64,000 nucleotides of DNA, taken from the NCBI RefSeq assembly GCF_030499515.1, contig NZ_JASTWJ010000001.1, forward strand, positions 6,490,001-6,554,000, written 5' to 3'. The notes below the pieces were generated by a model that did no database searches, was not told where the DNA came from, and saw only the letters and a program-made list of their open reading frames with translations. The first letter of the stretch is position 1; each line of letters begins with the position of its first letter. This DNA comes from Streptomyces sp. DT2A-34 (GTDB taxonomy: Bacteria; Actinomycetota; Actinomycetes; Streptomycetales; Streptomycetaceae). The position numbers were made by a program, and so were the translations under genes. Below, piece by piece: positions 28,692 to 57,839 of the stretch.

Positions 28692-29495
28692 CTACCAGAT
28701 CGCCTCGACCCACTCCGGGTGGTCGATGAACGGGTTGCGGTTGCCCTGGTAGCTGTCGTAGATGACCTCGTTGCGGCGCTCTTCGAAGGCGTCCGGCGGG
28801 TCCTCGTCGTTCCAGGCCTTCAGGACCGAGAGGCGGCCGTGGAGGGGGACGCTGCCGTTGGTGACGGCGTCGTTGGGCTCCAGGTCGGGCCAGCTGTCGT
28901 CGCCCTCGTAGCGGACGGCCATGTAGAGGATCATGCGGGCCACGTCGCCCTTGACGGCGTCACGGGGCTCGAAGGAGTTGGAGTCGGTCAGGCTGCCACC
29001 GGAGTTGGTGAAGCTGCTGCCGCCGTTGTCGAAGTCCTTGTTGCCGCGGATGCTGTTGACCTGCACGTCCTCGGGGCGGAGGTGGTGCAGGTCGGTGCCC
29101 GGGCCGGCCGAGGTGCCGAAGTCGCCGTGGGACTGGGCCCACACGTGCTCGCGGTTCCAGTTGCCGGTGCTGCCACCGTTGAGGGACTTGCTGCGGGAGA
29201 TGCCCGAGTAGAGCAGCTTCACGTTGCTGCTGTTGTTCGGGTCCTGGTCGGTGACCTTCAGGGCGTTCCAGACGGCCGAGTACGAGATCGTCGTCTGGTC
29301 GCTGATGATCGTGTGCAGCGAGTCCTTCAGGGCCGTGCCGGACTTGCCGATCGCGTCGGCGTAGTACGTGTCGTCGTACTCGGTCGTCGTCGCCGCGGCC
29401 GGGGTCGCCGTCAGCGCCGGGGTGAGAGCGACCAGGACGGCGGCCGTCGTCAGTGCCACTGACTTCCAGCGGGGGCGTGTGCGTGTCGCCAGCAT
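28692..29495 (-). CDS. Secreted endonuclease I-family nuclease
   Basis: A 267-aa secreted His-Me-finger nuclease. A signal peptide runs to about residue 36 (ATPAAA). GNWNREHVWAQSHG, DLHHLRPEDVQVNS and RGNKDFDNGG are the catalytic and metal-binding segments of the endonuclease I (EndA/Vvn-like) family. It probably digests extracellular DNA or RNA for phosphate and nitrogen, or acts in developmental DNA turnover. ATG at 29495. Followed by a strong terminator hairpin, so monocistronic. Confidence 0.9.
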   Translation of the reverse strand: MLATRTRPRWKSVALTTAAVLVALTPALTATPAAATTTEYDDTYYADAIGKSGTALKDSLHTIISDQTTISYSAVWNALKVTDQDPNNSSNVKLLYSGISRSKSLNGGSTGNWNREHVWAQSHGDFGTSAGPGTDLHHLRPEDVQVNSIRGNKDFDNGGSSFTNSGGSLTDSNSFEPRDAVKGDVARMILYMAVRYEGDDSWPDLEPNDAVTNGSVPLHGRLSVLKAWNDEDPPDAFEERRNEVIYDSYQGNRNPFIDHPEWVEAIW

Positions 29496-32000: not shown

Positions 32001-32202
32001 CCGGGCATCGTGTGAGGTGGGGGTGGGTGCGGGCTGTGCCGGACCTGGCGGCTGGCTGTGAAAACTCAAAGTAGTCCGCAATGGGGTGCTGAAGAGGAGC
32101 CAGAAGATTGAGAGTTGAAGTAAAGACTCCCTCGTGTCATGATCACGGCCGCACCAAGTGAACCGATGTGACCACTCGGTTCCACCACATGCAGGGGGAA
32201 TC

Positions 32203-32595
32203 ATGCGCAAGCGCGCTACCTTTGCCATGGCCGCAGCCGGTGCGGCCTTCCTCGCCACGCTGACGTTCGGCGCGGCCCCGGCCTCGGCTGTGATCGACGA
32301 GAAGATCTCGGGCACCGTGTACGACGACGGCTGGTCCCACTACAAGATCAAGCGGTGCGCACAGCGCGACGTCGTTCTCGATGTGCAGAGTTCGCCTGAC
32401 GACGACGACATGTACCACTACGCGTCCAAGAGTCAGGGTGGTGGCGGGTCCTACGGCACCAAGCAGGTCGACGAGTTCACCGGGGCCAAGTACATGGGGC
32501 TCCGCTCCGGCTGCTTCTACTGGAACTCCCGCCAAGAGGAGGGCCTCATCGAAACGGACTGGGAGGACGTCTGGTACGGGGAGATCGACTACTGA
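32203..32595 (+). CDS. Small secreted protein A of the ABC cassette, 130 aa
   Basis: The Sec signal MRKRATFAMAAAGAAF...APASA is followed by a ~100-aa acidic, Tyr/Trp-rich mature domain with two Cys (KRCAQ and SGCFYW). It is clearly paralogous to the protein at 35725-36129: both share YDD-WSHY, -RRC/KRC, QGGGG, SGCFYWN-RQ and a C-terminal G-IDY/G-IEY. ATG at 32203 with AGGGGGA before it. First gene of a six-gene cassette including a lipoprotein and an ABC transporter. No known family; a secreted bacteriocin-like or signalling protein handled by the transporter is one hypothesis. Confidence 0.85.
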   Translation: MRKRATFAMAAAGAAFLATLTFGAAPASAVIDEKISGTVYDDGWSHYKIKRCAQRDVVLDVQSSPDDDDMYHYASKSQGGGGSYGTKQVDEFTGAKYMGLRSGCFYWNSRQEEGLIETDWEDVWYGEIDY

Positions 32596-32629
32596 CAGCC
32601 CCGGCCTGAACGATCAGCGTGGAGCAAGC

Positions 32630-33118
32630 ATGAAAACGCGCCAGTACGTACTCCTGTCCTGTCTCCTGGTGATGGGCCCCGCACTCTCCGCCTGTGGCGG
32701 CACGTCTGAGGCTTCCGACGGCTGGGAGAGCAAGCAGGAGGTGACCGCCGAGGTCAAGAAGCTTCGTGCGGACACCGAACTGCCTCCCGGCGGCAAGTGG
32801 AACGCGGAGGTGTCGGGCTCGGACGACGACCACTACCAGACGGGATCGGCCGATGCCCTCGTCCTGGACGAGGCACAGTGCGAGTGGTACGCGTACTGGC
32901 TCGATCGCACCGAGTCGTCCGACGACAAGGCCGCGGCGACGGCACTGAAGCACTTCGTCGTCCTGCATGACATGCCGGCCTACAAAGCCAACGACAAGTC
33001 GTACCGGGAAGTCGTGCAGTCCGTCGAGGACGCGGCGGAACTGGGTGACCCGAGCGGAGTCCAGGGATTCGTCCGGGACAACTGCGAGGGCATGCAGGAA
33101 GGCAGCGACTACCAGTGA
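32630..33118 (+). CDS. Cassette lipoprotein, 162 aa
   Basis: The signal sequence ends in a lipobox (ALSACGG, Cys21), so the protein is anchored outside the membrane. The mature part is highly charged and helical, with two further Cys (DEAQCEWYAYW and VRDNCEGMQ). GGAG precedes the ATG at 32630, 34 bp after gene A. Its stop overlaps the GTG of the next gene (GTGA at 33115). No domain recognised. By position it could bind the small secreted proteins or give immunity to them (inference). Confidence 0.85.
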   Translation: MKTRQYVLLSCLLVMGPALSACGGTSEASDGWESKQEVTAEVKKLRADTELPPGGKWNAEVSGSDDDHYQTGSADALVLDEAQCEWYAYWLDRTESSDDKAAATALKHFVVLHDMPAYKANDKSYREVVQSVEDAAELGDPSGVQGFVRDNCEGMQEGSDYQ

Positions 33119-33801
33119 GGCTGCGGCGCATCGGCCTCGGCCCCGCCGCCGTGGCCGCGCTGTTCGGTGTGATCGGTGGCATTGCGTCCTGGGCCTTGTT
33201 GGGCACGGCCCAGCAGGGCCAGGCGAGCGTACCTGTCCAGGAACAGGGCGAAAACCATGTCGAGCCCGCCGTGGTGACGGTCCGTACGGCCGACGTCACC
33301 AGCGTGCTCACCATGGAGGGTCGGATCGCGAAGGAGTCCGGGCGCCATGTCGCACAGGCCACTGTCGCGCCGGCCCACCTGTACCGCTTCATCGACACCC
33401 CGCGTACCGCCAAGGTGAAGATCGTGGATGGTCCCGAGGCCTTCACCTGTGGTGACGTCACCGTCGGCGCTGACCCGTCCGACCCCTCCGGTGACGTCCT
33501 GTTCACTTGCACCGTGCCCACGTCCGTCAAGGTGTTCACCGGGCTCCCGATCAAGGTGGCGGTGGCCACCGGGCACGCCGACAACGCGGTTACGGTGCCG
33601 GTCAGCGCGCTGTCCGGAACAGTGGGATCGGCTCACGTCACAGTCGTCGACGACCAGGGCGGCCGCAAGCAGCGGCAGGTCGTCGTCGGTGTCGTCAACG
33701 GTGTCGTGGCCCAGGTGACCAAGGGACTCGAAGCCGGCGAGAAGGTGCAGGATCCAGTGGCGGACGCCTTGGTCGGCGCCGGTGTGGGGGAGAGCGGGTG
33801 A
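33115..33801 (+). CDS. Minimal membrane-fusion/adaptor-like protein
   Basis: A 228-aa protein with one N-terminal membrane segment (AAVAALFGVIGGIASWALL) and an extracellular beta-rich remainder. The C-terminal part (KVAVATGHADNAVTVPVSAL, then VTVVDDQGGRKQRQV and GLEAGEKV) resembles the beta-barrel and membrane-proximal ends of MacA/RND-type adaptors. The long hairpin and classic lipoyl halves are absent, and two Cys (FTCGD, LFTCTV) occur instead. GTG start at 33115 inside the lipoprotein stop; its own stop overlaps the ABC ATPase start (GTGA). Probably the extracellular partner of the transporter. Confidence 0.8.
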   Translation: MRLRRIGLGPAAVAALFGVIGGIASWALLGTAQQGQASVPVQEQGENHVEPAVVTVRTADVTSVLTMEGRIAKESGRHVAQATVAPAHLYRFIDTPRTAKVKIVDGPEAFTCGDVTVGADPSDPSGDVLFTCTVPTSVKVFTGLPIKVAVATGHADNAVTVPVSALSGTVGSAHVTVVDDQGGRKQRQVVVGVVNGVVAQVTKGLEAGEKVQDPVADALVGAGVGESG

Positions 33802-34499
33802 CGCTGTCTCTGCGGGGTGTCACCAAGACAATCCCCCTCGGCGACGGGCGGCACGTCGATCTCATCAGGGACCTGGACTTCGACCTGGCGCCGGGTGACT
33901 CGGTGTCCGTCGTGGGCCGCTCCGGCAGCGGCAAGAGCAGCCTCCTGAACATCCTGGGACTGCTCGACCGGCCGACGAGCGGACAGGTGGAACTCGACGG
34001 CCAGAGCCTGCTCGGCCTGCCCGACCGCAAGCTCTCGACGATCCGGGGACGGCACATCTCGTTCATCTTCCAGCAGTTCCACCTGCTGCCCAGACGGACC
34101 GCGCTGGAGAACGTGTGGACGCCCCTCGCTCACATTCGGGACCGCGCACTGTGGCGGCAGCGCCGTGAACTGGCTGCCGAGGCGCTGGCCCGGGTCGGCC
34201 TGACCGGCAAGGAAGACGCGATGCCGGAGACCCTCTCCGGTGGTGAACAGCAGCGAGTGGCCATTGCTCGCGCGCTGGTCCACCGGCCGCGGTACGTCCT
34301 CGCCGACGAGCCCACCGGGGCGCTGGACGGTGAGACCGCCCACAGTGTCATGGACCTGCTCCTCGACGTGGCCCGCTCCCAGCGGGCCGGGCTCGTCCTG
34401 GTGACCCACGACGCCCAGCATGCCACCGCAACCGAACGACAACTCAGGCTCGACGAAGGAACGTTGGCACCTCTGGTGCCGGAGGGGAAGATGCGGTGA
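33798..34499 (+). CDS. ABC transporter ATPase (MacB/LolD-like)
   Basis: A cytosolic ATPase subunit of 233 aa with all motifs intact: Walker A GRSGSGKSS, Q-loop FIFQQFHLLP, signature LSGGEQQR, Walker B YVLADEPTGALD and H-loop LVTHD. The subfamily is the one that pairs with MacB/FtsX-type mechanotransmission permeases. GTG start at 33798 overlapping the adaptor stop; stop overlaps the permease GTG (GTGA at 34496). It energises the cassette's export or extraction step. Confidence 0.92.
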   Translation: MTLSLRGVTKTIPLGDGRHVDLIRDLDFDLAPGDSVSVVGRSGSGKSSLLNILGLLDRPTSGQVELDGQSLLGLPDRKLSTIRGRHISFIFQQFHLLPRRTALENVWTPLAHIRDRALWRQRRELAAEALARVGLTGKEDAMPETLSGGEQQRVAIARALVHRPRYVLADEPTGALDGETAHSVMDLLLDVARSQRAGLVLVTHDAQHATATERQLRLDEGTLAPLVPEGKMR

Positions 34500-35689
34500 A
34501 CAGTGTCCTTCCCCTACTCTCCTCCGCCTGGCAGGAGTTGCGGGTGCACCGGGTGCGTTCGCTCCTCGCAGGGCTGAGCGTGGTGATCGGAGTTGCGGCC
34601 CTGGTGGCCGTCGTCGCCATGGGAGACCTCGGACGGGCCGCTGTCCAGGAGCAGGTGGAGCGTACGGTCGGCCGTCCCGCGACCCTCTCGGTCCATCTGA
34701 CGGCGGATGGAGAGCAGACCGCGTCCAGGCCATCGGTGGACCGCAACGCGGCGTGGATCAGGCAGCTGGGGGTACGGGCGCTATCACGTGTGGAGGTGCG
34801 CCAGGCGCAACTCGATGCGGTGTCGTCCTCTCCGGTCCCGCCGCTCGGCGTGACGGTCATGGGTGTCGACGGGGCCTATGGGTCCGTCAAGCGCATGGAC
34901 CTCCTCGCCGGGCAGTGGCTCCCGGAAAGGAAGGCAGAGCCCTGGGCTCCGCCGCTCTACCTCAACGCCGAGGCAGCCGAACACTTCGGTGTCGACCACA
35001 ACGCCCTGGGCTCCCGCCTCTCGATCGAGGCGGACACCCCGACCCGGGGAATCGTCCTCGGCGTTGTCGACGACTCCCGCAACGAGCCGGTCGCCTACAC
35101 GGACATCCGGTCGCTGCGGAAGTGGTACTCGGAGTCCACGGCTCCCGAGACGGCCGAGATCCTTCTGACCGTCGCGCCGTCGGAGGCCGAGTACGTGACC
35201 TCCGCTGTTCTGCACCACCTGGCATCGGCTGGCCTTACAGGCAGCGAACGAGTCCAGCGGGTGGACGATTTCTCCGCGTACGAGCGAATCCTCAAACTCC
35301 TGCAGGCTGTACTCGGAGCCATTGCGGGAATCTCGCTCGTCACCGGCGGAATCGGCCTGATGAACCTGACGCTTTCGCAAATACAGTCGCGTGTCCACGA
35401 GTTCGGAGTGCGCCGCGCGTTCGGCGCGTCCCAGTCCCACATCTTCGCCATCATCCTGTGGGAATCCGTCATCCTCACGGCGGTCTCGTCCCTGCTTGGA
35501 ACGCTCCTGTCGGCAGGCGTATTCAACGCCGCCCTGTTCATGGTGCCGGACTTCTCCGGCGGAATTCAATTCCCCGTCACGGCGGCCCTCATCGGAAGTG
35601 CGGCCGCCATTCTCATCGGCGTCGTCTCGGCGCTGGTACCGGCCCTGCGCGCCGCGCGGCTGGACATCATTCGCGCGATTCGCACGTGA
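34496..35689 (+). CDS. ABC permease, MacB/FtsX type
   Basis: A 397-aa permease with four transmembrane helices: one near residues 20-40 (LLAGLSVVIGVAALVAVVAM), a large extracellular domain (~45-265), then three helices at the C-terminus, with MNLTLSQIQSRVHEFGVRRA as the cytosolic coupling helix. This is the MacB_PCD plus FtsX layout. Such systems export peptides, extract membrane-bound molecules or confer bacteriocin immunity. Translationally coupled to the ATPase; 35 bp separate it from secreted protein B. Confidence 0.9.
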   Translation: MNSVLPLLSSAWQELRVHRVRSLLAGLSVVIGVAALVAVVAMGDLGRAAVQEQVERTVGRPATLSVHLTADGEQTASRPSVDRNAAWIRQLGVRALSRVEVRQAQLDAVSSSPVPPLGVTVMGVDGAYGSVKRMDLLAGQWLPERKAEPWAPPLYLNAEAAEHFGVDHNALGSRLSIEADTPTRGIVLGVVDDSRNEPVAYTDIRSLRKWYSESTAPETAEILLTVAPSEAEYVTSAVLHHLASAGLTGSERVQRVDDFSAYERILKLLQAVLGAIAGISLVTGGIGLMNLTLSQIQSRVHEFGVRRAFGASQSHIFAIILWESVILTAVSSLLGTLLSAGVFNAALFMVPDFSGGIQFPVTAALIGSAAAILIGVVSALVPALRAARLDIIRAIRT

Positions 35690-35724
35690 CGGCGAGTCGT
35701 GCCCGGAAATGAGAGATCGAATAT

Positions 35725-36129
35725 ATGCGAACCAAGACAGTAACCGGCCGACTGGTCACAGGGGCCGTCTGTGCCCTCGCTGCCGTCGTGCTGACCTCCT
35801 CCCCGGCGTCCGCGGCGCTGACTGTGGAGCGATTCTCCGGGCTGCTGTACGACGACGATTGGTCGCACTACAGCAATCGGCGGTGTGCCACGGATCCGGT
35901 GAAGTTCTACCTCGACAAGTGGCCCGACGGTGACGGCACGCGCCACATAGCCTCCGCCAACCAGGGAGGTGGCGGCACCGAACGGGGTGAGAAGTACGTG
36001 GCCGGCAAGGACAGCAGCAAGAAGTCCATGGGCTTCTCTTCCGGCTGCTTCTACTGGAACACCCGTCAGTACGAAAGCACCTTCGAGGTGGATGGCGAAG
36101 ACAACTTCATGGGACAGATCGAGTATTGA
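35725..36129 (+). CDS. Small secreted protein B of the ABC cassette, 134 aa
   Basis: Paralog of the protein at 32203-32595. The signal peptide ends SSPASA, followed by a ~104-aa mature domain with YDDDWSHYSNRRC, NQGGGGTERG and SGCFYWNTRQ. The two Cys match those of protein A, suggesting one conserved disulfide. It is slightly more basic than A. ATG at 35725 behind GAGAG; likely read from the same transcript as the transporter. The presence of one copy at each end of the ABC cassette suggests a two-component product or a product-and-cognate pair. Function unknown. Confidence 0.85.
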   Translation: MRTKTVTGRLVTGAVCALAAVVLTSSPASAALTVERFSGLLYDDDWSHYSNRRCATDPVKFYLDKWPDGDGTRHIASANQGGGGTERGEKYVAGKDSSKKSMGFSSGCFYWNTRQYESTFEVDGEDNFMGQIEY

Positions 36130-36142
36130 TCGCCGACTGTTG

Positions 36143-36190: not shown

Positions 36191-36406
36191 TCAGGGCTGA
36201 GATGCCTTGATGGACGTGACGAAGGCAGACCAGTCGGCGGCGGAGAAGACCAGCGCCGGGCCGTGCGGGGCCTTGGAGTCGCGGACGGGGATGCCGGAGG
36301 GGTGGTTGTCGAGGACTTCGAGGCAGCTCCCGGCGTTGTCATCGCTGTGCGACGACTTGCGCCAGCCGCTCAGCGTGGCCGCGTCCGGGATGGTGCGCTC
36401 AGTCAT
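36191..36406 (-). CDS. DUF397 domain protein
   Basis: A 71-aa protein with the DUF397 hallmarks: LSGWRKSSHSDDNAGSCLEV, then IPVRDSKAPHGPALVFS and AADWSAFV. Such proteins occur almost only in actinomycetes, next to XRE regulators of the WhiJ type, and may be their small antagonists. The start overlaps the stop of the XRE gene by 8 bp, so they are co-expressed and probably act together. Confidence 0.92.
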   Translation of the reverse strand: MTERTIPDAATLSGWRKSSHSDDNAGSCLEVLDNHPSGIPVRDSKAPHGPALVFSAADWSAFVTSIKASQP

Positions 36407-37196
36407 GGTGCCCGTACCCCTTCGCAGTGGCCCTGAGCAGGGCCAGTGACTCCTTCAGCGGCAGTGCGTCGCTCATCGCGAGATCGTAGCGGTGCTGCAA
36501 CTTCCGGACCATGGACGGGGAATCGTGCAGCTTTCCCACGTGCCCGCCCTCGGTGTATGCCAGCGGCGGCTGGTCCTCGAACCACATCAGCGTGATCATG
36601 CTGGTCATCAGCGGATGATGGCCCACGTCAAACGGCAGCACATGCACGCGGATACGTCCAGTCTCGGCGAGCTGAACGACGTGCATGATCTGCTCCGTCA
36701 TGACGTCCCCGCCGGCCACCGGGCGTCGCAACAGTGTCTCGTCCAGCAGCGCCCACACTACGGGCGTCAACGGGTCTTCGAGGATCTTCGCCCGCTCAAG
36801 GCGTGTGACAACGCGCCTGTCACATTCCTCTTCACTCACCGGGGGGTACGCCGCGCCCAGAACCGCACGCGCGTACCTCTTCGTCTGGAGGATGCCCGGG
36901 AAGTACGCCAAGGCGAACTCGCGGATCGTCACTGCCTGCTGTTCGAGTACGAGCACCTTCTCGAAGTACTCGGCGATCGACTTCTCGTCGTCCTGCGGCA
37001 GAAAGCTGCTCAGCACATCCCCCGTGCCCAGAGCCGTATCCAGCCGCCGAGCATCCTCCTTGGACGGCACCCGCCGCCCCGCCTCGATATGCGCGATGTG
37101 CGAACGCGTCATGACCGCCTGGTCCGCCAACTGTTGCTGCGTCAGCCCTGCCGCCTCGCGTCGCGCCTTGAGCCAGTCGCCGTACATCGTGCCCAT
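36399..37196 (-). CDS. XRE-family regulator with DUF5753 (WhiJ-like)
   Basis: A 265-aa protein. The N-terminal helix-turn-helix (LTQQQLADQAVMTRSHIAHI) is followed by the long C-terminal DUF5753 region (FPGILQTKRYARAVL, RLERAKILEDP, VHVLPFDVGHHPL). The ATG at 37196 is used; an ATG at 37187 is an alternative. It partners the overlapping DUF397 gene and is divergent from two small genes, a layout seen in WhiJ-type developmental regulatory loci of Streptomyces. An inverted repeat just upstream could be its own operator. Confidence 0.92.
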   Translation of the reverse strand: MGTMYGDWLKARREAAGLTQQQLADQAVMTRSHIAHIEAGRRVPSKEDARRLDTALGTGDVLSSFLPQDDEKSIAEYFEKVLVLEQQAVTIREFALAYFPGILQTKRYARAVLGAAYPPVSEEECDRRVVTRLERAKILEDPLTPVVWALLDETLLRRPVAGGDVMTEQIMHVVQLAETGRIRVHVLPFDVGHHPLMTSMITLMWFEDQPPLAYTEGGHVGKLHDSPSMVRKLQHRYDLAMSDALPLKESLALLRATAKGYGHHD

Positions 37197-40400: not shown

Positions 40401-40488
40401 TCGGTCGCCGATCGTTACAGCGGGATGAAATCCGCCTCTGTCCGTGTTGGTGCCTTCCGGTAGATCAGGGCGAACGGAGGGCACCGGC

Positions 40489-43400
40489 GTGGCAGCGCAG
40501 CAGGGGTGGGCGAGACGACTGTGGGGCTACGCGTGGCGCTACCCCAAGGATGTGATCCTCGCCCTCGGCTCCTCGCTCGGCGGTATGGCCGTGATGGCGA
40601 TCGTCCCGCTGATCACGAAGGTGATCATCGACGACGTCATCGGCGACCACAGCCGCAGCATGGCCGTCTGGGCGGGCCTGCTGATCGCCGCCGCGCTCGC
40701 TGTCTACGTCCTCACCTACATCCGCCGCTACTACGGCGGCCGCCTCGCCCTCGACGTCCAGCACGATCTGCGCACGGAGATGTTCGGGACGATCACCCGG
40801 CTCGACGGGCGGCGGCAGGACGAGCTGTCCACCGGGCAGGTCGTCGGGCGGGCCACCAGCGACCTCCAGCTGATCCAGGGCCTGCTCTTCATGCTCCCGA
40901 TGACCATCGGGAACTTCGCGCTCTTCCTGATATCCCTGGTCGTCATGGCGTGGCTGTCGCTGCCGCTCACGCTCGTCGCCCTCGCCGTGGCACCCGCGCT
41001 GTGGTGGATCGCGGGGCGCAGCCGCACCAAGCTGCACCCGGCCACCTGGTACGCCCAGGCCCAGGCCGCCGCCGTCGCCGGCGTGGTCGACGGGGCCGTC
41101 AGCGGCGTGCGCGTGGTGAAGGGGTTCGGTCAGGAGGAGCAGGAGACCGGGAAGCTCAGGGAGGTCAGCCGGCGGCTCTTCGCGGGGCGGCTGCGCACCA
41201 TCCGGTTCAACTCCAGGTACACCCCGGCGCTCCAGGCCGTGCCGGCGCTCGGCCAGGTCGCCATGCTCGCGCTCGGCGGGTGGCTGGCGGTCCGCGGGCA
41301 CATCACCCTGGGCACTTTCGTCGCCTTCTCCACCTACCTCGCCCAGCTGGTCGGGCCGGTCCGGATGCTCGCCCTGGTCCTCACGGTGGGGCAGCAGGCC
41401 CGCGCGGGCACCGAGCGCGTCCTCGAACTGATCGACACCGAGCCGTCGATCAAGGACGGCACCAAGACGCTGCCCGCCGACGCGCCCGCGACCGTCGAGT
41501 TCGACGACGTTTCGTTCGGATACGACGACGCCTCCGGCAAGACCCGTCCCGTCCTCGACGGGCTCTCCTTCGTGATCCAGCCCGGCGAGACCCTCGCCGT
41601 CGTCGGCTCCTCCGGCTCCGGCAAGTCCACCGTCTCCCTCCTCCTCCCGCGCTTCTACGACGTCACGCGCGGCGCCGTCCTCGTCGGCGGCCACGACGTC
41701 CGCGAGCTGACCTTCGACTCGCTGCGGGCCGCGATCGGGCTGGTGCCCGAGGACTCCTTCCTCTTCTCGGACACGGTCCGCAACAACATCGCGTACGGCC
41801 GCCCCGACGCGACCGAGGAGGAGATCCGTAAAGCCGCCGGCGCCGCCCAGGCCGACCGCTTCATCGCCGAGCTCCCCGACGGTTACGACACCAAGGTCGG
41901 CGAGCACGGCCTCACCCTCTCCGGAGGCCAGCGTCAGCGCGTCGCGCTCGCCCGCGCGATCCTCACCGACCCCCGACTCCTCGTCCTCGACGACGCGACC
42001 TCGGCGGTGGACGCCCGGGTCGAGCACGAGATCCACGAGGCGCTGAGGCACGTCATGGAGGGCCGGACGACTCTGCTGATCGCCCACCGGCGCTCCACCC
42101 TCAACCTCGCCGACCGCATCGCCGTCCTCGACGCCGGCCGCCTCGCCGACATCGGCACGCACGAGGAACTCCAGGAGCGGTCCGCCCTCTACCGCCGCCT
42201 CCTCACCGACCCCGACGAACTCGGCGGCGTCTCACCCGGCCACGTCCAGCCCGCCTCCCCCCGGGAGGACAGCTCCGTACGCGACGAACTGGACGCCGAG
42301 TTCGACGCCGAACGCGGGGTGACGCCGAGGCTGTGGACCGGCGACCGCGAGCGCAAGGACCTGGCGCTGACCGAGTCCCCGGCCACCCCCGAGCTCCTCG
42401 CCCAGGTGGAGGCGTTGCCCCCGGCGGCCGACACCCCCGACATCGACGAGGCCGGTGCGGTCCGGCCGGAGGAGTCGTACGGCCTGAAACGGCTGCTACG
42501 GGGCTTCGGGCGCCCGCTGCTGATCAGCCTCGGCCTCGTCGCCGTGGACGCCGGCATGGGACTGCTGCTCCCGATCCTGATCCGGCACGGCATCGACTCG
42601 GGCGTCACGCAGGCCGCCCTCGGCGCGGTCTGGGCGGCCTCCCTGCTCGCCCTGCTCGCCGTCACGGCCCAGTGGGCGGCGCAGGTCGGCGAGACCCGCA
42701 TGACCGGGCGCACCGGCGAGCGCGTCCTGTACTCCCTCCGTCTGAAGATCTTCGCCCAGCTCCAGCGGCTCGGACTCGACTACTACGAGCGGGAGTTGAC
42801 CGGCCGGATCATGACGAGGATGACGACGGACGTCGACGCGCTGTCGACCTTCCTTCAGACGGGCCTGGTCACCGCCTTCGTCTCCGTCGTCACCTTCTTC
42901 GGCATCATGGTCGCCCTGCTGGTGCTCGACCTTCAGCTCGCGCTCGTCGTCTTCGCGACGCTGCCGCCGCTGATCGTCGCGACGTACTTCTTCCGTCGGG
43001 CGAGCGTGAAGGCGTACGAACTCGCCCGGGAGCGTGTGTCGTTGGTCAACGCCGACCTGCAGGAGTCGGTGTCGGGGCTGCGGATCGTGCAGGCCTTCCG
43101 GCGCGAGCGGGACGGCGGCGCGCGGTTCGCCGAGCGCAGCGACAGCTACCGCCAGGCCCGTATCCGGGGCCAGTGGCTGATCTCGATCTACTTCCCCTTC
43201 GTGCAGTTCCTGTCGTCGGCGGCCGCGGCGGCGGTGCTGATCGCGGGCGGGGCCCGGATCGACGACGCGACGCTGACGACCGGTGCGCTGGTGGCGTACC
43301 TGCTCTACATCGACCTGTTCTTCGCCCCGGTCCAGCAGCTCTCCCAGGTCTTCGACGGCTACCAGCAGGCCACGGTCTCGCTCGGCCGGATCCAGGAACT

Positions 43401-44220
43401 GCTCCGGGAGCCGACGTCGACGAAGGCGGCCGACGAGCCGCTGGAGGTGCTGTCGCTGCGGGGCGAAGTCGCCTTCGAGGACGTGCACTTCAAGTACGGC
43501 GACGAGGAGGAGGCACTCAGCGGCATCGACCTGCGCATACCCGCCGGGCAGACGGTGGCCTTCGTCGGCGAGACCGGCGCGGGCAAGTCGACCCTCGTCA
43601 AGCTGGTCGCCCGCTTCTACGACCCGACCGGCGGACGGGTCACCGTCGACGGCACGGACCTGCGCTCCCTGGACCTCACGTCGTACCGGCACCGGCTCGG
43701 CGTCGTCCCGCAGGAGGCGTACCTCTTCCAGGGCACCGTCCGGGACGCCATCGCCTACGGCCGCCCGGACGCGACGGACGCCGAGGTCGAGGCCGCCGCC
43801 CGGGCGGTGGGCGCCCACGAGATGATCGCGACCCTCGACGGCGGCTACCTCCACGAGGTCGCCGAGCGCGGCCGCAACCTCTCCGCCGGGCAACGCCAGC
43901 TGATCGCCCTGGCCCGCGCCGAGTTGGTCGACCCCGACATCCTGCTCCTCGACGAGGCGACGGCCGCGCTGGACCTGGCCACGGAGGCCCAGGTCAACCA
44001 GGCCACGGACCGGCTCGCGGGCCGCCGGACGACACTGGTGGTCGCCCACCGTCTGACCACGGCCGCGCGGGCGGACCGGGTCGTCGTGATGGACCACGGT
44101 GAGGTCGCCGAGGACGGTACGCACGAGGAGTTGTTGGCGCGGGGCGGGCGGTATGCGCGGTTGTGGCGGGTGTTCGTGGGGCAGTCCGAGCCGGAGGAGC
44201 CGGTCGGGGCGTCCCGATAG
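40489..44220 (+). CDS. Fused two-half ABC exporter (TMD-NBD-TMD-NBD)
   Basis: A single 1243-aa polypeptide made of two complete half-transporters. Half 1: six-helix TMD, Walker A GSSGSGKST (~372), LSGGQ (~476), Walker B LLVLDDATSAVD. Half 2: TMD from ~677, Walker A GETGAGKST (~1026), LSAGQ (~1130), Walker B LLLDEATAALD. NBD1 has Asp where the catalytic Glu should be and NBD2 has a deviant signature, so one ATP site is degenerate, as in heterodimeric exporters. GTG at 40489 with GGAGG 8 bp upstream. Probably a multidrug or lipid exporter; in most relatives the halves are separate genes. Confidence 0.92.
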   Translation: MAAQQGWARRLWGYAWRYPKDVILALGSSLGGMAVMAIVPLITKVIIDDVIGDHSRSMAVWAGLLIAAALAVYVLTYIRRYYGGRLALDVQHDLRTEMFGTITRLDGRRQDELSTGQVVGRATSDLQLIQGLLFMLPMTIGNFALFLISLVVMAWLSLPLTLVALAVAPALWWIAGRSRTKLHPATWYAQAQAAAVAGVVDGAVSGVRVVKGFGQEEQETGKLREVSRRLFAGRLRTIRFNSRYTPALQAVPALGQVAMLALGGWLAVRGHITLGTFVAFSTYLAQLVGPVRMLALVLTVGQQARAGTERVLELIDTEPSIKDGTKTLPADAPATVEFDDVSFGYDDASGKTRPVLDGLSFVIQPGETLAVVGSSGSGKSTVSLLLPRFYDVTRGAVLVGGHDVRELTFDSLRAAIGLVPEDSFLFSDTVRNNIAYGRPDATEEEIRKAAGAAQADRFIAELPDGYDTKVGEHGLTLSGGQRQRVALARAILTDPRLLVLDDATSAVDARVEHEIHEALRHVMEGRTTLLIAHRRSTLNLADRIAVLDAGRLADIGTHEELQERSALYRRLLTDPDELGGVSPGHVQPASPREDSSVRDELDAEFDAERGVTPRLWTGDRERKDLALTESPATPELLAQVEALPPAADTPDIDEAGAVRPEESYGLKRLLRGFGRPLLISLGLVAVDAGMGLLLPILIRHGIDSGVTQAALGAVWAASLLALLAVTAQWAAQVGETRMTGRTGERVLYSLRLKIFAQLQRLGLDYYERELTGRIMTRMTTDVDALSTFLQTGLVTAFVSVVTFFGIMVALLVLDLQLALVVFATLPPLIVATYFFRRASVKAYELARERVSLVNADLQESVSGLRIVQAFRRERDGGARFAERSDSYRQARIRGQWLISIYFPFVQFLSSAAAAAVLIAGGARIDDATLTTGALVAYLLYIDLFFAPVQQLSQVFDGYQQATVSLGRIQELLREPTSTKAADEPLEVLSLRGEVAFEDVHFKYGDEEEALSGIDLRIPAGQTVAFVGETGAGKSTLVKLVARFYDPTGGRVTVDGTDLRSLDLTSYRHRLGVVPQEAYLFQGTVRDAIAYGRPDATDAEVEAAARAVGAHEMIATLDGGYLHEVAERGRNLSAGQRQLIALARAELVDPDILLLDEATAALDLATEAQVNQATDRLAGRRTTLVVAHRLTTAARADRVVVMDHGEVAEDGTHEELLARGGRYARLWRVFVGQSEPEEPVGASR

Positions 44221-49931: not shown

Positions 49932-50513
49932 ATGACCGCCTACCTCATCCTCCACGGCTGGCAGAACCACCGCCCCAAGGACCACTGGCAGCACTGGCTC
50001 GCCGACCGTCTCACCGACCTCGGCCACCAGGTCGTCTACCCGCAGCTGCCCGACCCCGACGACCCCGAACTCGAGGTCTGGCTGGAGGAGTTGGCCCGGC
50101 ACCTCGGCAAGCTCGGCACGGCGTCGGAGCGGGTCGTCGTCGCGCACAGCCTGTCCGCCGTGCTGTGGCTGCACGCTGCCGCGCGCGGGCTGCCGGGCCT
50201 CGACGCCGTGAACCGGGTGCTGCTCGTCGCCCCGCCGTCCGGCACCGTGCTCGCCCGCCACCCGGAGGTCGCCCGATTCGCCCCGCCACCCCTGGACTTC
50301 CCCCTCCCCGGCCCCACCCGCCTGGTCGCCGGCGACGACGACCCGTACTGCGAGGAGGGCGCCGACACCCTCTACGGCCACCCCCTCGCCCTCCCGACCG
50401 ACATCCTCCCCGGCGCCGCCCACCTCGACCTGGACGCCGGTTACGGGCTGTGGCCCGCCGTCCTGGGATGGTGCCTGGACCCCACCGTGCCGCTCATGGC
50501 CCGTCCGGAGTAG
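49932..50513 (+). CDS. RBBP9/YdeN-family serine hydrolase
   Basis: A 193-aa alpha/beta hydrolase with YLILHGWQNHRPKDHWQHWL, the nucleophile in VVVAHSLSAVL (Ser of HSLS), the acid Asp in LVAGDDDPYC and the catalytic His in PGAAHLDLDAGYG. The full triad is thus present, and the length is normal for the family. Small esterase or thioesterase of unknown substrate. Its 3' end overlaps the convergent MFS gene by 20 bp. Confidence 0.9.
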   Translation: MTAYLILHGWQNHRPKDHWQHWLADRLTDLGHQVVYPQLPDPDDPELEVWLEELARHLGKLGTASERVVVAHSLSAVLWLHAAARGLPGLDAVNRVLLVAPPSGTVLARHPEVARFAPPPLDFPLPGPTRLVAGDDDPYCEEGADTLYGHPLALPTDILPGAAHLDLDAGYGLWPAVLGWCLDPTVPLMARPE

Positions 50514-51732
50514 CCGTGCCGTCCCGCAGTTCCGGCGTGCTCGCACCGACGTAGGCCACCGCCAGCACGCACAGCAGCCCGCCCGTGACGAGGGCGGTCG
50601 CGCCGGACGACCAGCCGGCGACCAGGCCGGCGCGCAGATTGCCGAGGTGCGGGCCTCCCTGGCCGACGATCTGCTCGGCGGCCGTCACACGGCCGAGCAG
50701 GGCGTCAGGGGTGCGGGTCTGGACGATCGTGGCGCGCGAGACAACCGACAGGGCGTCGGCGGCACCCGCCACCACCAGCAGCCCCAGCCCCACCCACGGG
50801 CTGGTCGTCAGGCCGAACAACGCCAGCGCCACGCCCCACGTCGCCGCCCCGCACAGCATCACGAGGCCGGGGCGGCCCAGGCGGGTGACCGAGCCCGACA
50901 GGGCCGTCGCCGTGACGCCGCCCACCGCGACGGCCGAAAGGAACAGGCCGAGGGTGCGCGGGTTGCCCCCGAAGCGTTCGGCGTTGATCAGGGGGAAGAG
51001 GCTGACCGGCATGGAGAGGACCGTGGCGGCGAGGTCGGTGATCAGCGCGCCGCGCACCACCCGGTTGCCGGCCAGGAAGCGCAGCCCGTCCAGGACGCCG
51101 TGCAGCCCGGCCCGCGACGGCTCGCCCTCGGGCGGCAGCGCGGGCAGGCCGAAGGCGCCGTAGAAGGCGAGACCGAAGCTCAGGGCGTCCAGCAGATAGC
51201 AGACGCCGATGCCGAACCAGCCGAGGAACAGTCCGCCCAGCGCCGGGCCGAGCAGCATCATCGCCTGGCCCGTGACCTGGTTGAGGGCCAGCCCGGCCGC
51301 CACCTGCTCCTTGGGCAGCAGCCGCGGCACGAACACGCCCGCCGCCGGGCCGCCGACCGCGCCGAAGCAGGAGCCGGCCGCCACCAGGGCGAGGATCCCG
51401 GCCACCGGCACACCTCCGGTGAAGCCCTGCACCGCGAGGAGCAGCACGCACACCGCCTGCCCGACGGTGGCGACCAGGAAGATCCGCCGCCGGTCGCCCC
51501 GGTCCACCCACGACCCGGCGAACAGACCCACACCCACCATGGGCAGCGCCTGCGCCAGACCGACCGCACCGCTCCAGACCGCGCTGTGCGTCATGTCCCA
51601 GACCTGGAACAGGACGGTCACCATGGTCATGAAGCTGCCGAGCACGGACACCGCCCGCCCGATCAGCAGCCGCCGGAAGACCGGGGAGGTACGCAGCGGC
51701 CGTACGTCCATCAACGTACGGGCGAGGCTCAT
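50494..51732 (-). CDS. MFS efflux transporter (MefA/EntS-like)
   Basis: A 412-aa 12-helix major facilitator. Helix 1-2 region RRLLIGRAVSVLGSFMTMVT and the loop GSWVDRGDRRR (motif A variant) place it among the macrolide-efflux/enterobactin-exporter group. ATG at 51732; a run of Pro/Leu precedes the first helix. Substrate may be an antibiotic or siderophore. Transcribed alone, convergent with the small hydrolase. Confidence 0.88.
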   Translation of the reverse strand: MSLARTLMDVRPLRTSPVFRRLLIGRAVSVLGSFMTMVTVLFQVWDMTHSAVWSGAVGLAQALPMVGVGLFAGSWVDRGDRRRIFLVATVGQAVCVLLLAVQGFTGGVPVAGILALVAAGSCFGAVGGPAAGVFVPRLLPKEQVAAGLALNQVTGQAMMLLGPALGGLFLGWFGIGVCYLLDALSFGLAFYGAFGLPALPPEGEPSRAGLHGVLDGLRFLAGNRVVRGALITDLAATVLSMPVSLFPLINAERFGGNPRTLGLFLSAVAVGGVTATALSGSVTRLGRPGLVMLCGAATWGVALALFGLTTSPWVGLGLLVVAGAADALSVVSRATIVQTRTPDALLGRVTAAEQIVGQGGPHLGNLRAGLVAGWSSGATALVTGGLLCVLAVAYVGASTPELRDGTATPDGP

Positions 51733-51828
51733 GAGGGCATGGCGGGGCGCGGAATGGGTTCGGGCACGAGGGGGGACGTTATACGGCGGCCCTCGTGCCG
51801 GGCCACCGAATTACGGCTCCGGCCGGGC

Positions 51829-52629
51829 CTAGGCCGACTCGTTCAGCAGCCGTGAGAGGTGTTCGCGGCCGGCGGCCAGCAGTCCGTCGAGCGGCGCGGC
51901 CTCCTCGTACCACCGCTTCTCGTACTCCCAGCACAGCCAGCCGTCCCAGCCGTGCCGGGAGAGCACCTCCACGCACTCGGCGAGCGGCAGCACCCCCGCG
52001 CCGAGCGGCAGCGGGGTCGTGTCGTCGGCGGAGGCGATGTCCTTGACCTGGACGTAGCCGAGGTACGGGGCGAGGGCCGCGTAGCTCTCGGAGGGCTGCT
52101 CGCCGCCCAGCCAGGTGTGCATGACGTCCCACAGCGAGCCGACGTGGCGGTGGCCGACCAGGCCGAGGACGCGGATCGCGTCGGCGCCGGTGCGGTGCGA
52201 GTCGTGGGTCTCCAGCAGGATCCGTACGCCGATGTCGGCGGCGTACTCCGCGGCCGTACCCAGGCGCCGCGCGGCGGTCGCGTCCGCCTCCTGCCGGCTC
52301 TGCTCGGGGTCGGCGCCGGGGAAGACGCGGACGAAGCCGGCGCCGAGGTCGTGGGCGAGGTCGAGGAGGGTGCGGATCTCCTCGATCACGGGCTCGTCGT
52401 CTCCCGGCGCGGCCACGCGCGCGTACCCGGCGAGGCCGAGCAGTTCGATGCCGGCCGCCTTGAACTCGCCCACCACGTCCGCCCGCTGGGCGGCATCCAG
52501 GCCGGTGTGCACCGGCTCCTCGGGGTGCGTGCGCAACTCGACACCGTGATAGCCGTGCGTGGTCGCGAGCCGCAGCACGTCGGGGAGCGGAAGACCGGGG
52601 ACGCCGAGGGTGGAGAACGCCAGTTTCAT
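51829..52629 (-). CDS. Sugar phosphate isomerase/epimerase family protein
   Basis: A 266-aa xylose-isomerase-like TIM barrel starting MKLAFSTLGVPGLPLPDVLR. Metal-ligand segments occur as LLETHDSHRTG, SLWDVMHTW, YVQVKDI and WLCWEYEKRW. It acts on a sugar or sugar derivative in the cytosol; the substrate is unclear. ATG at 52629. Related in fold to the isomerase at 54610 but not closely. It lies between the MFS gene and the broken MarR-GNAT gene. Confidence 0.87.
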   Translation of the reverse strand: MKLAFSTLGVPGLPLPDVLRLATTHGYHGVELRTHPEEPVHTGLDAAQRADVVGEFKAAGIELLGLAGYARVAAPGDDEPVIEEIRTLLDLAHDLGAGFVRVFPGADPEQSRQEADATAARRLGTAAEYAADIGVRILLETHDSHRTGADAIRVLGLVGHRHVGSLWDVMHTWLGGEQPSESYAALAPYLGYVQVKDIASADDTTPLPLGAGVLPLAECVEVLSRHGWDGWLCWEYEKRWYEEAAPLDGLLAAGREHLSRLLNESA

Positions 52630-52705
52630 GCATCCCACCTTGCCAGAAAACGAGGGCAAGCCCATCCGGCAGGCGGGCCCGGGGTGCCCCGGGCCGGTCG
52701 TCGCC

Positions 52706-53517
52706 TCACTCCTGCGTGCCGTACAGATCAAGCCGCCAGTCCTGGCCGTTCAGATCCTTGCCGAAGGAGCGGTGCGGTTTCTCGGCGGCCAGGACGAAGC
52801 CGTGGCGCTGGTAGATGCGGCGGCCAGGATGTCGTTGGTCCAGAGCACGAGCTCGCGGTAGCCGACCTCGCGGGCGAAGTCGACGACGGCCGCGACGAGC
52901 CGGTCGCCGATGCCGAGGCCGCGCGCGTCCGGCTCGACCAGCAGCAGCCGCAGCCGGGCCGTGGCGGGCGCCTCGTCCCGTACGCACATCACGCAGCCCA
53001 CCGGCCGCCCGTCCAGCTCGGCGATCCACACCCGCTCCAGATGCGGATCGTGGTCCTCCGCGAAGTCCGCGACGATCCTCGCCACCAGCCCCTCGTAGTC
53101 GGCGTTGAAGCCGTACTCGGCGGCGTACAGCGCGGCGTTGCGCTGCACGATCCAGCCGAGGTCGCCGGGGCCGGGCTCGCGCAGCAGGACGTCCTCGCGG
53201 CGGGGAGGGCGGCCGTGGGACAGGATCGTACGGACGGTCGTCATCGCCTCGGCGAGCAGCGGTCGTTCGGCGGCCGGCACGGTCGACAGCAGCGAGCCGA
53301 CCGACTCGGTCGCCCGCTCCTCCAGCAGCTTGCCGGTCTCCCGGCCGCGTGCCGTGAGCGTGACGCGACGGCGCCGGGGGTCCTCCCGGGAGGCCGTGCG
53401 CTCGATGAGCCCGTCCTGCTCGAACTTGTTCGGAATCCGGCTCAAGTGCCCGGCGTCCAGCGAGAGTTCGGCGCGCAGATCGGCCGCGTCGGTACGCGGC
53501 ACGCCGAGAGCACGCAC
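52706..53517 (-). pseudogene. MarR-acetyltransferase fusion gene, truncated and frameshifted
   Basis: The first ~105 residues form a MarR wing-helix (AADLRAELSLDAGHLSRI, RRRRVTLTARG); the rest is a GNAT domain (ERVWIAELDGRPVGCVMCV, LLLVEPDARGLGIGDRLV). At about 52828 the frame changes: LVLWTNDILAA continues in one frame, but IYQRHGFVLAAEKPHRSFGK and WRLDLYGTQE, the expected GNAT end, are in another. One missing base explains this. The N-terminus begins abruptly (VRALGVPRTD), so ~40 residues of the MarR domain also seem lost. Members of this family are ~310 aa single chains. Non-functional as written, unless the break is a sequence error. Confidence 0.75.
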
Positions 53518-53803
53518 CTGACGCCGCGCGGCCCGCCCTTCGGGCGGACGACGGGAACTTGACGACAGGGCCTAGGACACCCGCGCCCGCGCGGCTGCCC
53601 CTCGGCGGCGGGCCGGTAGACGCGCACCTGTACGCGGTGGGCCGTTCGTACGGGAGGCCGGGGCGGTGCCCGCATCTTCGTGGCTTCTGCCAGTACGCCC
53701 CTCTCCCGGGGTGCGACCAGACTGCCCGCCGGAGGCCGCGGTGTCGCCCGGGGACGGGCGGACGCGGCCAAGGACATGACGAAGCACAGGGGAGGACACC
53801 ACG

Positions 53804-54544
53804 ATGAGCGTGCAGCAGTACGACGAGATCGGTGAGGCGTTCGAAGGCTTCAAGTCCCTGCCGCTGACGCGGTACACGGAGGTGCCCGGCTTCCTGGCCA
53901 TGGTCGGGGACGTGCGCGGCAAGGCGGTCCTCGACCTCGCCTGCGGCACCGGCTTCTACAGCCGGGAGTTCAAGCGGCGCGGCGCCACGGAGGTGCTCGG
54001 TATCGACATCTCCGGCGAAATGATCGCCGCCGCACGGAAGTCGGAGGAGGGCAGTCCGCTGGGTGTGCGCTACGAGGTGGGCGACGTGTCCCAACTGCGG
54101 CCGCTGGAGCGGCGCTTCGATGTCGCGACGGGAGTCCAGATGCTCAACTACGCCCGGGACATCGCCGACATGGAGCGCATGTGCCGCAACACGCACCGGA
54201 GCCTGGCACCCGGCGCCGAGTTCTTCCTGCTCGCCCAGTCACCCGACTACCGTACCGACGGGCCGTCCCTGGAGAAGTACGGCTTCCGTTGCGAGCCGAC
54301 CGGTGAGGAGGCCGAGACCGGGCCGCGCTTCCGGGTCACGGCGCTGCTCGACCCGCCGATCAGCATCCTCGCCGCCGCCCCGCGCCGCGAGGTCTACGAA
54401 GCCTCCCTGCGGGCGGCCGGATTCAGCGACCTGACCTGGGTCCCGCTGGAGGTCTCCGACGCCGGCGTGCGCGAGTTCGGCGCGGACTTCTGGGCGGACT
54501 ACCTCGCCAACCCCCCACTGGAGATGCTGCGCTGCCGCGCCTGA
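53804..54544 (+). CDS. Class I SAM-dependent methyltransferase
   Basis: A 246-aa cytosolic methyltransferase. The SAM-binding motif I is VLDLACGTGFYSREF, with motif II EVLGIDISGEMI and the acidic VGDVSQLRPL. The N-terminal YDEIGEAFEGFKSLPLTRYT is typical of ubiE/toxin-methyltransferase-like enzymes. ATG at 53804 behind GGGGAGGA. Acceptor unknown (small molecule likely). Single gene, followed by a strong bidirectional terminator. Confidence 0.9.
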   Translation: MSVQQYDEIGEAFEGFKSLPLTRYTEVPGFLAMVGDVRGKAVLDLACGTGFYSREFKRRGATEVLGIDISGEMIAAARKSEEGSPLGVRYEVGDVSQLRPLERRFDVATGVQMLNYARDIADMERMCRNTHRSLAPGAEFFLLAQSPDYRTDGPSLEKYGFRCEPTGEEAETGPRFRVTALLDPPISILAAAPRREVYEASLRAAGFSDLTWVPLEVSDAGVREFGADFWADYLANPPLEMLRCRA

Positions 54545-54569
54545 CCCGCACCGGCGACCGGGGCACGAG

Positions 54570-54600
54570 GTGGTCCGCCCTCCCGGCGGGGGCGGACCAC
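54570..54600. terminator. Bidirectional hairpin between methyltransferase and isomerase genes
   Basis: GTGGTCCGCCC (54570-54580) and GGGCGGACCAC (54590-54600) form a perfect 11-bp stem with a 9-nt loop, between the convergent stops. Confidence 0.85.
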
Positions 54601-54609
54601 CCCGCCTCG

Positions 54610-55443
54610 TTACGCGGCGTGCTCCACGAAGCGCCGCGCCGTCTCGGCGAGCACCTCCCGCCCGTCCCGCGCCCACAGCCCGTCGTTGAACAGCTCGACC
54701 TCGATGGCGCCCGTGTACCCGGCCGCCTCCACGTACCCCTTCCACTCCCGCATGTCGATCGCACCGTCGCCGATCTGACCGCGGCCGGTCAGGACGCCCT
54801 CCGGCAACGGCGTCGTCCAGTCGGCGAGCTGGAAGGTGTGGATACGGCCACCCGCCCCCGCCCGTGCGATCTGCTCCGGCGCCGTGTCGTCCCACCAGAT
54901 GTGGTACGTGTCCACCGTGACGCCGACCTGGTGGGCCGGGAAGCGTTCCGCGAGGTCCAGGGCCTGGGCCAGGGTCGACACCACGCAGCGGTCGGCGGCG
55001 TACATCGGGTGCAGTGGCTCGATGGCCAGCTTCACGCCGCGCTCCTCGGCGTACGGGCCCAACTCGCCGAGCGCGTCGGCGATCCGCTCCCGCGCGCCGT
55101 GCAGGTCCTTGGACCCGGCGGGCAGCCCGCCGGACACCAGCACCAGCACGTCCGTGCCCAGCGTCGCCGCCTCGTCGACCGCTCGGCGGTTGTCGTCCAG
55201 CGCCGTGGCCCGCTCCTGCGGGTCGATCGCCGTGAAGAAGCCGCCGCGGCACAGGGTGGTGACCGTCAGACCGGCGTCGCGCACCAGCTTGGCCGTCGCC
55301 TCCAGGCCGTACATCTGGACGGGTTCGCGCCACAGGCCGACGTTCGCCACGTCCAACTCGCCGCACGCCTCGACCAGTTCGGGCATGCTCAGCTGCTTCA
55401 CCGTCATCTGGTTGATGGAGAAGCGTTCAAGTCCGGTGCTCAC
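54610..55443 (-). CDS. Sugar isomerase/epimerase of the LacI-controlled operon
   Basis: A 277-aa xylose-isomerase-like TIM barrel. Metal-site segments: KLAIEPLHPMYAADR, VTVDTYHIWWDD, IHTFQLADW and GAIEVELFND. The GTG start at 55443 overlaps the stop of the DUF993 gene (GTGA), so translation is coupled. Third gene of the operon Gfo/Idh/MocA dehydrogenase, DUF993 aldolase-like, isomerase. Likely converts a keto-sugar or sugar acid formed by the dehydrogenase. Confidence 0.88.
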   Translation of the reverse strand: MSTGLERFSINQMTVKQLSMPELVEACGELDVANVGLWREPVQMYGLEATAKLVRDAGLTVTTLCRGGFFTAIDPQERATALDDNRRAVDEAATLGTDVLVLVSGGLPAGSKDLHGARERIADALGELGPYAEERGVKLAIEPLHPMYAADRCVVSTLAQALDLAERFPAHQVGVTVDTYHIWWDDTAPEQIARAGAGGRIHTFQLADWTTPLPEGVLTGRGQIGDGAIDMREWKGYVEAAGYTGAIEVELFNDGLWARDGREVLAETARRFVEHAA

Positions 55444-56594
55444 TGGGCCACTCCGTACAGGGCGAGCAGGTTCTTCATCCGCTCCTCGGCCAGCTTCGGG
55501 TCCGGGAAGAGGCCCAGTCCGTCGGCGAGTTCGTAGGCGCGGGCGAAGTGCGGGAGGGAGCGGGCCGACTGCAGGCCGCCGACCATGGTGAAGTGCGACT
55601 GGTGGCCGGCCAGCCAGGCGAGGAAGACCACGCCCGTCTTGTAGAAGCGGGTCGGCGCCTGGAAGAGGTGGCGGGACAACTCGACCGTCGGGTCCAACAG
55701 CCCCCGGAAGCCGGCCACATTCCCCGTGTCCAGCACCCGCACCGCCTCGGCCGCCAGCGGCCCCAGCGGGTCGAAGATGCCGAGCAGGGCGTGGCTGAAG
55801 CCCTTCTCGTCGCCCGCGATCAGCTCGGGGTAGTTGAAGTCGTCGCCCGTGTAGCAGCGCACGCCCTGGGGCAGGCGGCGGCGGATGTCGATCTCCCGCT
55901 GGGCCTCCAGCAGCGACACCTTGATGCCGTCCACCTTGTCGGGGTGCGCGGCGATGACCTCCAGGAAGGTGTCGGTGGCCGCGTCGAGGTCGCTCGACCC
56001 CCAGTAGCCCTCCAGCGCCGGGTCGAACATCGGGCCCAGCCAGTGCAGGATCACGGGCTCGGCGGACTGGCGGAGGAGGTGGCCGTAGAGCTCCAGGTAG
56101 TCCTCGGGCCCGGAAGCCGCGGCGGCCAGCGCCCGGGACGCCATCAGGATGGCCTGGGCGCCGGACTCCTCGACGAGGGCGAGCTGCTCCTCGTAGGCCG
56201 CCCGGACCTCGGCCAGGGACGCCGGGCCGGTGAGCTGGTCGGTGCCGACACCGCAGGCGATCAGCCCGCCGACCGACTTGGCCTCGGCGGCGCTGCGCCG
56301 GATCAGCTCGGCCGCGCCCGCCCAGTCCAGGCCCATCCCGCGCTGCGCGGTGTCCATGGCCTCGGCGACACCGAGCCCGTGGGACCACAGGTGCCGGCGG
56401 AAGGCGAGGGTGGCGTCCCAGTCCACGGCGGCGGCCGAGTCGGGCGACACATCGGCGTACGGGTCGGCGACGACGTGCGCCGCCGAGAAGACCGTACGGG
56501 AGGTGAGGGGCGCGCCCGGAGTGAGGGCGAGCGGCTCGGTGCGGGACTCGTACGCCCGCAAGCCGCCCTTGAAGTCAGGCAGTCGGATGGTCAC
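55440..56594 (-). CDS. DUF993 (dihydrodipicolinate synthase-like) protein
   Basis: A 384-aa TIM-barrel protein I place in DUF993. Recognisable parts are SRTVFSAAHVVADPYAD, WGSSDLDAATDTFLEVI, DGIKVSLLEAQREIDIRRRL (a candidate Schiff-base Lys in GIKVS) and CYTGDDFNYPELI. It probably acts as an aldolase or lyase on a 2-keto-3-deoxy sugar acid-like compound. GTG start at 56594 overlapping the dehydrogenase stop (GTGA). Activity has not, to my knowledge, been assigned to the family. Confidence 0.85.
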   Translation of the reverse strand: MTIRLPDFKGGLRAYESRTEPLALTPGAPLTSRTVFSAAHVVADPYADVSPDSAAAVDWDATLAFRRHLWSHGLGVAEAMDTAQRGMGLDWAGAAELIRRSAAEAKSVGGLIACGVGTDQLTGPASLAEVRAAYEEQLALVEESGAQAILMASRALAAAASGPEDYLELYGHLLRQSAEPVILHWLGPMFDPALEGYWGSSDLDAATDTFLEVIAAHPDKVDGIKVSLLEAQREIDIRRRLPQGVRCYTGDDFNYPELIAGDEKGFSHALLGIFDPLGPLAAEAVRVLDTGNVAGFRGLLDPTVELSRHLFQAPTRFYKTGVVFLAWLAGHQSHFTMVGGLQSARSLPHFARAYELADGLGLFPDPKLAEERMKNLLALYGVAQ

Positions 56595-57748: not shown

Positions 57749-57779
57749 GTCGTTCCCTTCGTAGGTGTCTGCGCAGCGT

Positions 57780-57820: not shown

Positions 57821-57839
57821 CTACCCTGTTGAGCGTCAC

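Follow-up and report, generated by a model that had tools for sequence, protein, structure and literature searches.

What does a run of six genes do when two of them encode related small secreted proteins and the others a lipoprotein and the parts of a MacB-like pump? The question is raised by positions 32203-36129 of a 64,000-nucleotide stretch (the window) of the 10.3-Mb genome of Streptomyces sp. DT2A-34. On direct reading of the open reading frames, the six genes all lie on the + strand in the order A, lipoprotein, adaptor, ATPase, permease, B, as an earlier sequence-only reading had named them. The 4-bp GTGA overlaps that it described as joining the four middle genes are present at 33115, 33798 and 34496, and gaps of 34 and 35 bases separate A from the lipoprotein gene and the permease gene from B. 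The best reading of this cassette, held with reserve, is a Sec-secreted protein pair with its own lipoprotein and pump as self-protection. The features are as follows, with lengths in amino acids (aa).

32203..32595, + strand: gene A, encoding a small protein with Sec-type secretion; 130 aa, of which about 102 remain in the acidic mature form with its two cysteines; belongs to no known family
32630..33118, + strand: lipoprotein with lipobox LSAC; 162 aa, no known family reaches the cut-off; the start was chosen by us inside a longer frame
33115..33801, + strand: adaptor of MacA/HlyD type, shortened; 228 aa, with a hydrophobic segment at the N-terminus and a membrane-proximal part at the C-terminus, lipoyl region absent
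33798..34499, + strand: ATP-binding cassette (ABC) ATPase of LolD/FtsE/MacB type; 233 aa
34496..35689, + strand: permease of MacB/FtsX type; 397 aa, with four hydrophobic segments, the first followed by a large domain
35725..36129, + strand: gene B, paralogue of A; 134 aa
32194..36136, + strand: conserved unit, delimited against S. cupreus, whose copy has other neighbours

Conservation, position and spread of the cassette

The same six genes, in the same order and under purifying selection, are present in two other Streptomyces, S. cupreus and a genome designated G151. Identity to S. cupreus is 104/130 for A, 126/162 for the lipoprotein, 165/226 for the adaptor, 211/233 for the ATPase, 345/397 for the permease and 112/134 for B, and A is identical in G151 (130/130). 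The ratio of nonsynonymous to synonymous substitution rates (dN/dS) of the six genes is 0.15-0.35 in the comparison with S. cupreus and 0-0.33 in that with G151; because all six are conserved with low dN/dS, none of them is a chance frame.

A DNA comparison with S. cupreus yields a single conserved block here, 32194-36136, at 82% identity. The S. cupreus copy sits between stretches matching window 49988-53630 and 54618-59123 and adjoins a gene matching window 62485-63086. On the simplest reading the six genes appear to have changed site as one piece, although rearranged flanks would give the same picture. In G151, the block matches the window together with its flanks, including the XRE genes. 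The GC content of the cassette (66.5%) is lower than that of all 104 equal-length tiles outside it (mean 71.0%). An XRE/DUF397 locus had been said to follow the cassette directly; an XRE regulator and a DUF397-like gene do adjoin it, at 36191-37196, but on the minus strand, and they are found in G151 and not beside the S. cupreus cassette. Because the block conserved in S. cupreus comprises 32194-36136 only, in different surroundings, these genes are not part of the unit.

On the S. cupreus side (L001 3624-9524), the cassette and the gene matching window 62485-63086, which by eye looks dihydrofolate-reductase-like, lie between counterparts of window 53.6 and 54.6 kb. This arrangement points to a possible variable spot at window 53630-54618, about 17 kb from the cassette position.

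Close homologues of A and B were found only in complete cassettes (3/3 loci, the window included), which bears out the idea of one cassette. A profile search with A and B, in which at most 10 candidates per genome were scored, matched 6 of 392 Streptomyces genomes at an expectation value (E) of 0.01 or less, with full matches only in the own genome and G151. The match in G007 (L006:1480-1899) is an orphan 139-aa secreted protein, weakly A/B-like (26.9 bits), beside a serine/threonine-kinase-like gene. Those in G419 and G197 were rejected as frames antisense to what by eye is a dehydrogenase-like gene, a third match in the own genome is a different secreted protein, and the match in G359 was left out of the locus reading. 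The permease is matched at E 1e-40 or less in 2/392 Streptomyces genomes, with up to four candidates scored per genome. A pattern scan of named genomes, which detects near relatives only and may omit records near the window, found S. cupreus alone.

Searches for more distant copies gave no further cassette. Weaker permease matches were obtained in 38 other Streptomyces genomes, 19 of which were read (20 loci, mostly within 4.5 kb of the permease); among the called genes shown, A, B or the lipoprotein is never the best match, the gene calling at these loci being crude (the permease itself is uncalled in L090, L093 and L100). A permease search across the class matched 15 of 91 genomes, the own among them, and the 14 loci fetched, several of them at contig ends, likewise revealed no further cassette; the best match of two frames there was B or the lipoprotein (E 0.001 and 0.007), and by eye both look non-coding. 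No copy of A, the lipoprotein or the adaptor was found in the plasmid search, nor of the lipoprotein in the viral search. The cassette is rare and patchy within the genomes searched.

Secreted pair, pump and lipoprotein

A and B are paralogues, as had been proposed: 58 of 134 aligned positions are identical (43%, E 3e-32), mainly in the segments YDD.WSHY...RCA, QGGGG and SGCFYWN. Both begin with a hydrophobic segment ending in an AxA-type site. Sec-type signal peptides direct exit by Sec, so these segments make it likely that A and B are exported by this route. The mature forms are both acidic, with two cysteines apiece, and no Pfam or NCBIfam model matches either of them. B is predicted to be all-beta, with six strands, in a model of low confidence (mean predicted local distance difference test score, pLDDT, 41) whose best match in a PDB search has E 0.86.

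The permease matches PF12704 (57.3 bits, cut-off 27) and PF02687 (60.8 bits, cut-off 25.5), and its hydrophobic segments, by hydropathy, are 19-51, 264-284, 314-338 and 355-392, the first and second being separated by a large extracytoplasmic domain; the NCBIfam matches listed for it are all below their cut-offs. The ATPase matches PF00005 (115 bits, cut-off 25) and, among the 25 of 199 NCBIfam matches listed, the LolD, FtsE and MacB models below their cut-offs. The permease and its separate ATPase thus form an ABC transporter of the MacB/YknZ type.

The adaptor is unusual. It has one N-terminal hydrophobic segment (5-32), and its NCBIfam matches, below cut-off, fall on positions 218-305 of TIGR01730 and 295-360 of MacA, which we take to be the membrane-proximal end of such an adaptor; for the lipoyl/barrel-sandwich region with its hairpin, no Biotin_lipoyl or HlyD_3 match is obtained in Pfam at E 1 or less. 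Outside the cassette, the pump's nearest relatives among those found are the three-gene MacAB-like operons on the Arthrobacter plasmid StoSoilB13-1 and in G665, G650 and G679, in which the ATPase is 52-53% and the permease 30-33% identical to those of the cassette and the C-terminal part of the adaptor is homologous. The stretches read there contain no A, B or lipoprotein match, the G650 stretch ending just after the permease. The adaptors of these operons run full length against one another, whereas good alignment of the window adaptor (its residues 74-225) is confined to Arthrobacter residues 171-368. The match of its N-terminal part to Arthrobacter residues 54-85 is weak (E 3.4) and MAFFT places that part differently, so the break point is uncertain. 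In contrast to the window adaptor, the Arthrobacter adaptor matches Biotin_lipoyl and HlyD_3 above cut-off, and those of G665, G650 and G679 match both models, with 5/6 matches under cut-off. By alignment, the lipoyl stretch of the relatives has no counterpart in the window adaptor. Other Streptomyces MacB-like operons that were read have longer adaptors, often two-component-type neighbours (by eye) and in some cases different lipoproteins.

The lipoprotein has only sub-threshold Pfam and NCBIfam matches. By shuffle tests, lipoproteins of G527, G256, G039 and G272 are each related to it. G527, in another class, was reached by searching 198 genomes of the phylum with the permease, which gave 4 hits, the own among them; the remaining hits, G471 and G469, show no such lipoprotein match. 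The order in G527 is small secreted protein (132 aa), lipoprotein (175 aa), adaptor, ATPase and permease, followed by flagellar-looking genes (by eye) without a B-like gene, and its adaptor (341 aa) keeps a longer middle part, in which Pfam detects no lipoyl domain either. The other three came from a lipoprotein search in which 22 genomes matched, two of them through the cassette; the G289 match is by eye a different lipoprotein, and the other 16 matched the first 49 residues only and were not fetched further. A second search (13/199 genomes) gave 3 full matches (own, G151 and G039), the remaining 10 being partial N-terminal matches, left unread, and a further search with the family (2/70 genomes) returned G527 itself and one partial match, also unread.

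In Streptomyces G256 (L043:5247-6312), a 123-aa secreted protein is encoded directly upstream of the related lipoprotein, and neither has a Pfam family above cut-off. No adaptor or permease match is present at the G256, G039 or G272 loci, of which 12.5 and 13 kb were read for the first two. In two Streptomyces, a related lipoprotein is thus encoded close to a small secreted protein although the pump is missing, a hint that these two proteins work together. Such a small secreted upstream neighbour is present for 2 of 250 called genes in a rough control, compared with 2 of 4 lipoprotein loci outside the cassette; because the positive cases were found by eye, the comparison is only indicative.

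At the G039 locus (L044:4258-7935), relatives of the G256 pair are interleaved with genes that by eye are regulator-like, and a further secreted protein is encoded at L044 7363-7935.

Known systems and competing explanations

The sequence-only reading held that no described system has this gene set. This does not stand for the four-gene core, which has precedents in Mr10EFGH/AS-48EFGH and YknWXYZ; for the full combination, the flanking secreted genes, this lipoprotein family and a lipoyl-less adaptor do not occur together among the papers listed. By title and abstract start, no description of the six-gene cassette is found in the open-licence literature among the matches listed.

The four middle genes of the cassette follow the order of Mr10EFGH, in which an E protein is succeeded by the adaptor, the ATPase and the permease. 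Two parts are also alike in size, Mr10E, of unknown function, having 163 aa and the Mr10G ATPase 227 aa, and Mr10EFGH lies beside secreted antimicrobial genes, as the cassette pump lies beside A and B, whereas the Mr10F adaptor has 406 aa against 228 (PMC8306556). Mr10EFGH is a close relative of AS-48EFGH: the E proteins are 46% identical and F, G and H over 95%, so that E varies most, and strains that had lost as-48EFGH genes were sensitive to enterocin MR10 (PMC8306556). By analogy with E, the window lipoprotein may be the recognition part. AS-48EFGH protects against AS-48, and YknXYZ protects Bacillus from its own SDP toxin (PMC5985334). AS-48 is circular and exported by a second transporter, whereas A and B carry Sec-like signal peptides; the likeness of AS-48EFGH and Mr10EFGH to the cassette is one of gene layout and sizes. 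Bacillus YknWXYZ, like the cassette, combines an adaptor, an ATPase, a MacB-type permease and one accessory protein, and guards against a toxin exported Sec-dependently, as A and B would be by their signal peptides. However, YknW is a Yip1-family protein and the cassette lipoprotein has no Yip1 match in Pfam, and the toxin gene sdpC, by its name, lies outside ykn, whereas A and B flank the cassette pump.

On the favoured reading, A and B would form a paired, Sec-exported, disulfide-capable protein acting outside the cell, most likely an antagonistic, bacteriocin-like pair. A/B would be bound at the outer side of the membrane by the lipoprotein, and the MacB-like pump with its membrane-proximal adaptor, acting from the outer face after Sec export, would use ATP to expel again any protein returning to the membrane, in parallel with the reported action of AS-48EFGH and YknWXYZ on their toxins. 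Antibacterial activity, binding, transport direction and self-protection are all inferred here. The earlier proposal, in which the cassette makes, exports or resists a small secreted protein pair of its own, is supported in part and remains the best reading, on gene association and precedent. A broader and more doubtful proposal is an undescribed class of secreted-protein system, thin across the phylum, in which fast-diverging Sec proteins of about 100 aa would each be tied to one conserved lipoprotein family that recognises them. Some lineages would have recruited a MacB pump, the adaptor of which lacks the lipoyl region here; A and B would then be a two-protein bacteriocin of a new family on a site-changing unit.

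Several observations weigh against the favoured reading. The isoelectric points of A and B are 4.4 and 4.9, unlike typical pore-forming bacteriocins; the pair matches no known bacteriocin or toxin family among the models searched, it does not resemble lactococcin 972 above chance in a shuffle comparison, and no regulator belongs to the six-gene unit. The lipoprotein family is rarely found in the genome searches, and the G272 member has no small secreted neighbour in view and, compared directly, shows no significant likeness to those of G256 and G039 (165 and 80 of 1000 shuffles, respectively). In G039, the relative of the G256 secreted protein lies about 1.6 kb upstream of the lipoprotein, and a gene on the opposite strand intervenes. 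Sequence comparison does not connect A and B with the secreted proteins of G527, G256 and G039 (Z -0.9 to 2.6; profile comparison with that of G527, E 0.057), so their association with these proteins is only one of type and position.

The main rival, though unlikely, is surface delivery, in which Sec exports A and B, and the lipoprotein, adaptor and pump take them from the membrane and either release them or assemble them on the wall or spore surface; the cargo would itself be the product, with no toxin involved. A, B and the pump are indeed encoded in a single run on one strand, the shortened adaptor suggests a role near the membrane, and export of dispersin and, tentatively, of CexE by pumps of the MacB type has been reported (PMC5985334). 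However, the lipoprotein relatives in G256 and G039 stand near small secreted genes with no adaptor or permease match in the stretches read, so the pump appears dispensable there, and full A/B matches in 2/392 genomes of the genus, the own included, ill fit a general surface or developmental role. It is less likely still that the cassette is a MacAB-type drug or peptide resistance pump, with A and B as decoys or sensors for an outside antimicrobial. The three-gene operons lacking A, B and lipoprotein matches and the several Streptomyces MacB-like operons beside two-component-type genes would suit such a pump, whereas the unit has no two-component regulator, and A and B are conserved about as much as the pump genes. 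That A and B are divergent lactococcin 972 family members is very improbable. The lactococcin 972 operon, like the cassette, places a small Sec-exported protein by presumed immunity and transport genes, and proteins of this kind are described as a beta-sandwich (PMC11796350), to which the low-confidence all-beta model of B may be compared; the cassette ATPase matches TIGR03608 below cut-off, and one profile comparison, signal-peptide residues included, aligned WSxY..RC (E 0.0012, probability 18.9%). A and B nevertheless have no PF09683 match and no similarity to the family above shuffles.

Significance and other genes of the window

Antagonism in Streptomyces has been studied mostly through small molecules and modified peptides. 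If the favoured reading is correct, the cassette would be an unmodified two-protein secreted system that carries its protection genes in a 3.9-kb unit, easily moved, expressed and assayed. The cassette gives three unclassified proteins one shared context, and a natural MacA-type adaptor without the lipoyl region raises the question of the minimal working part of such pumps. Elsewhere in the window, a secreted protein at 28692-29495 resembles, by eye, endonuclease I family nucleases, and a very long frame at 40444-44220 (1258 aa) reads, also by eye, as two fused ABC exporter halves.

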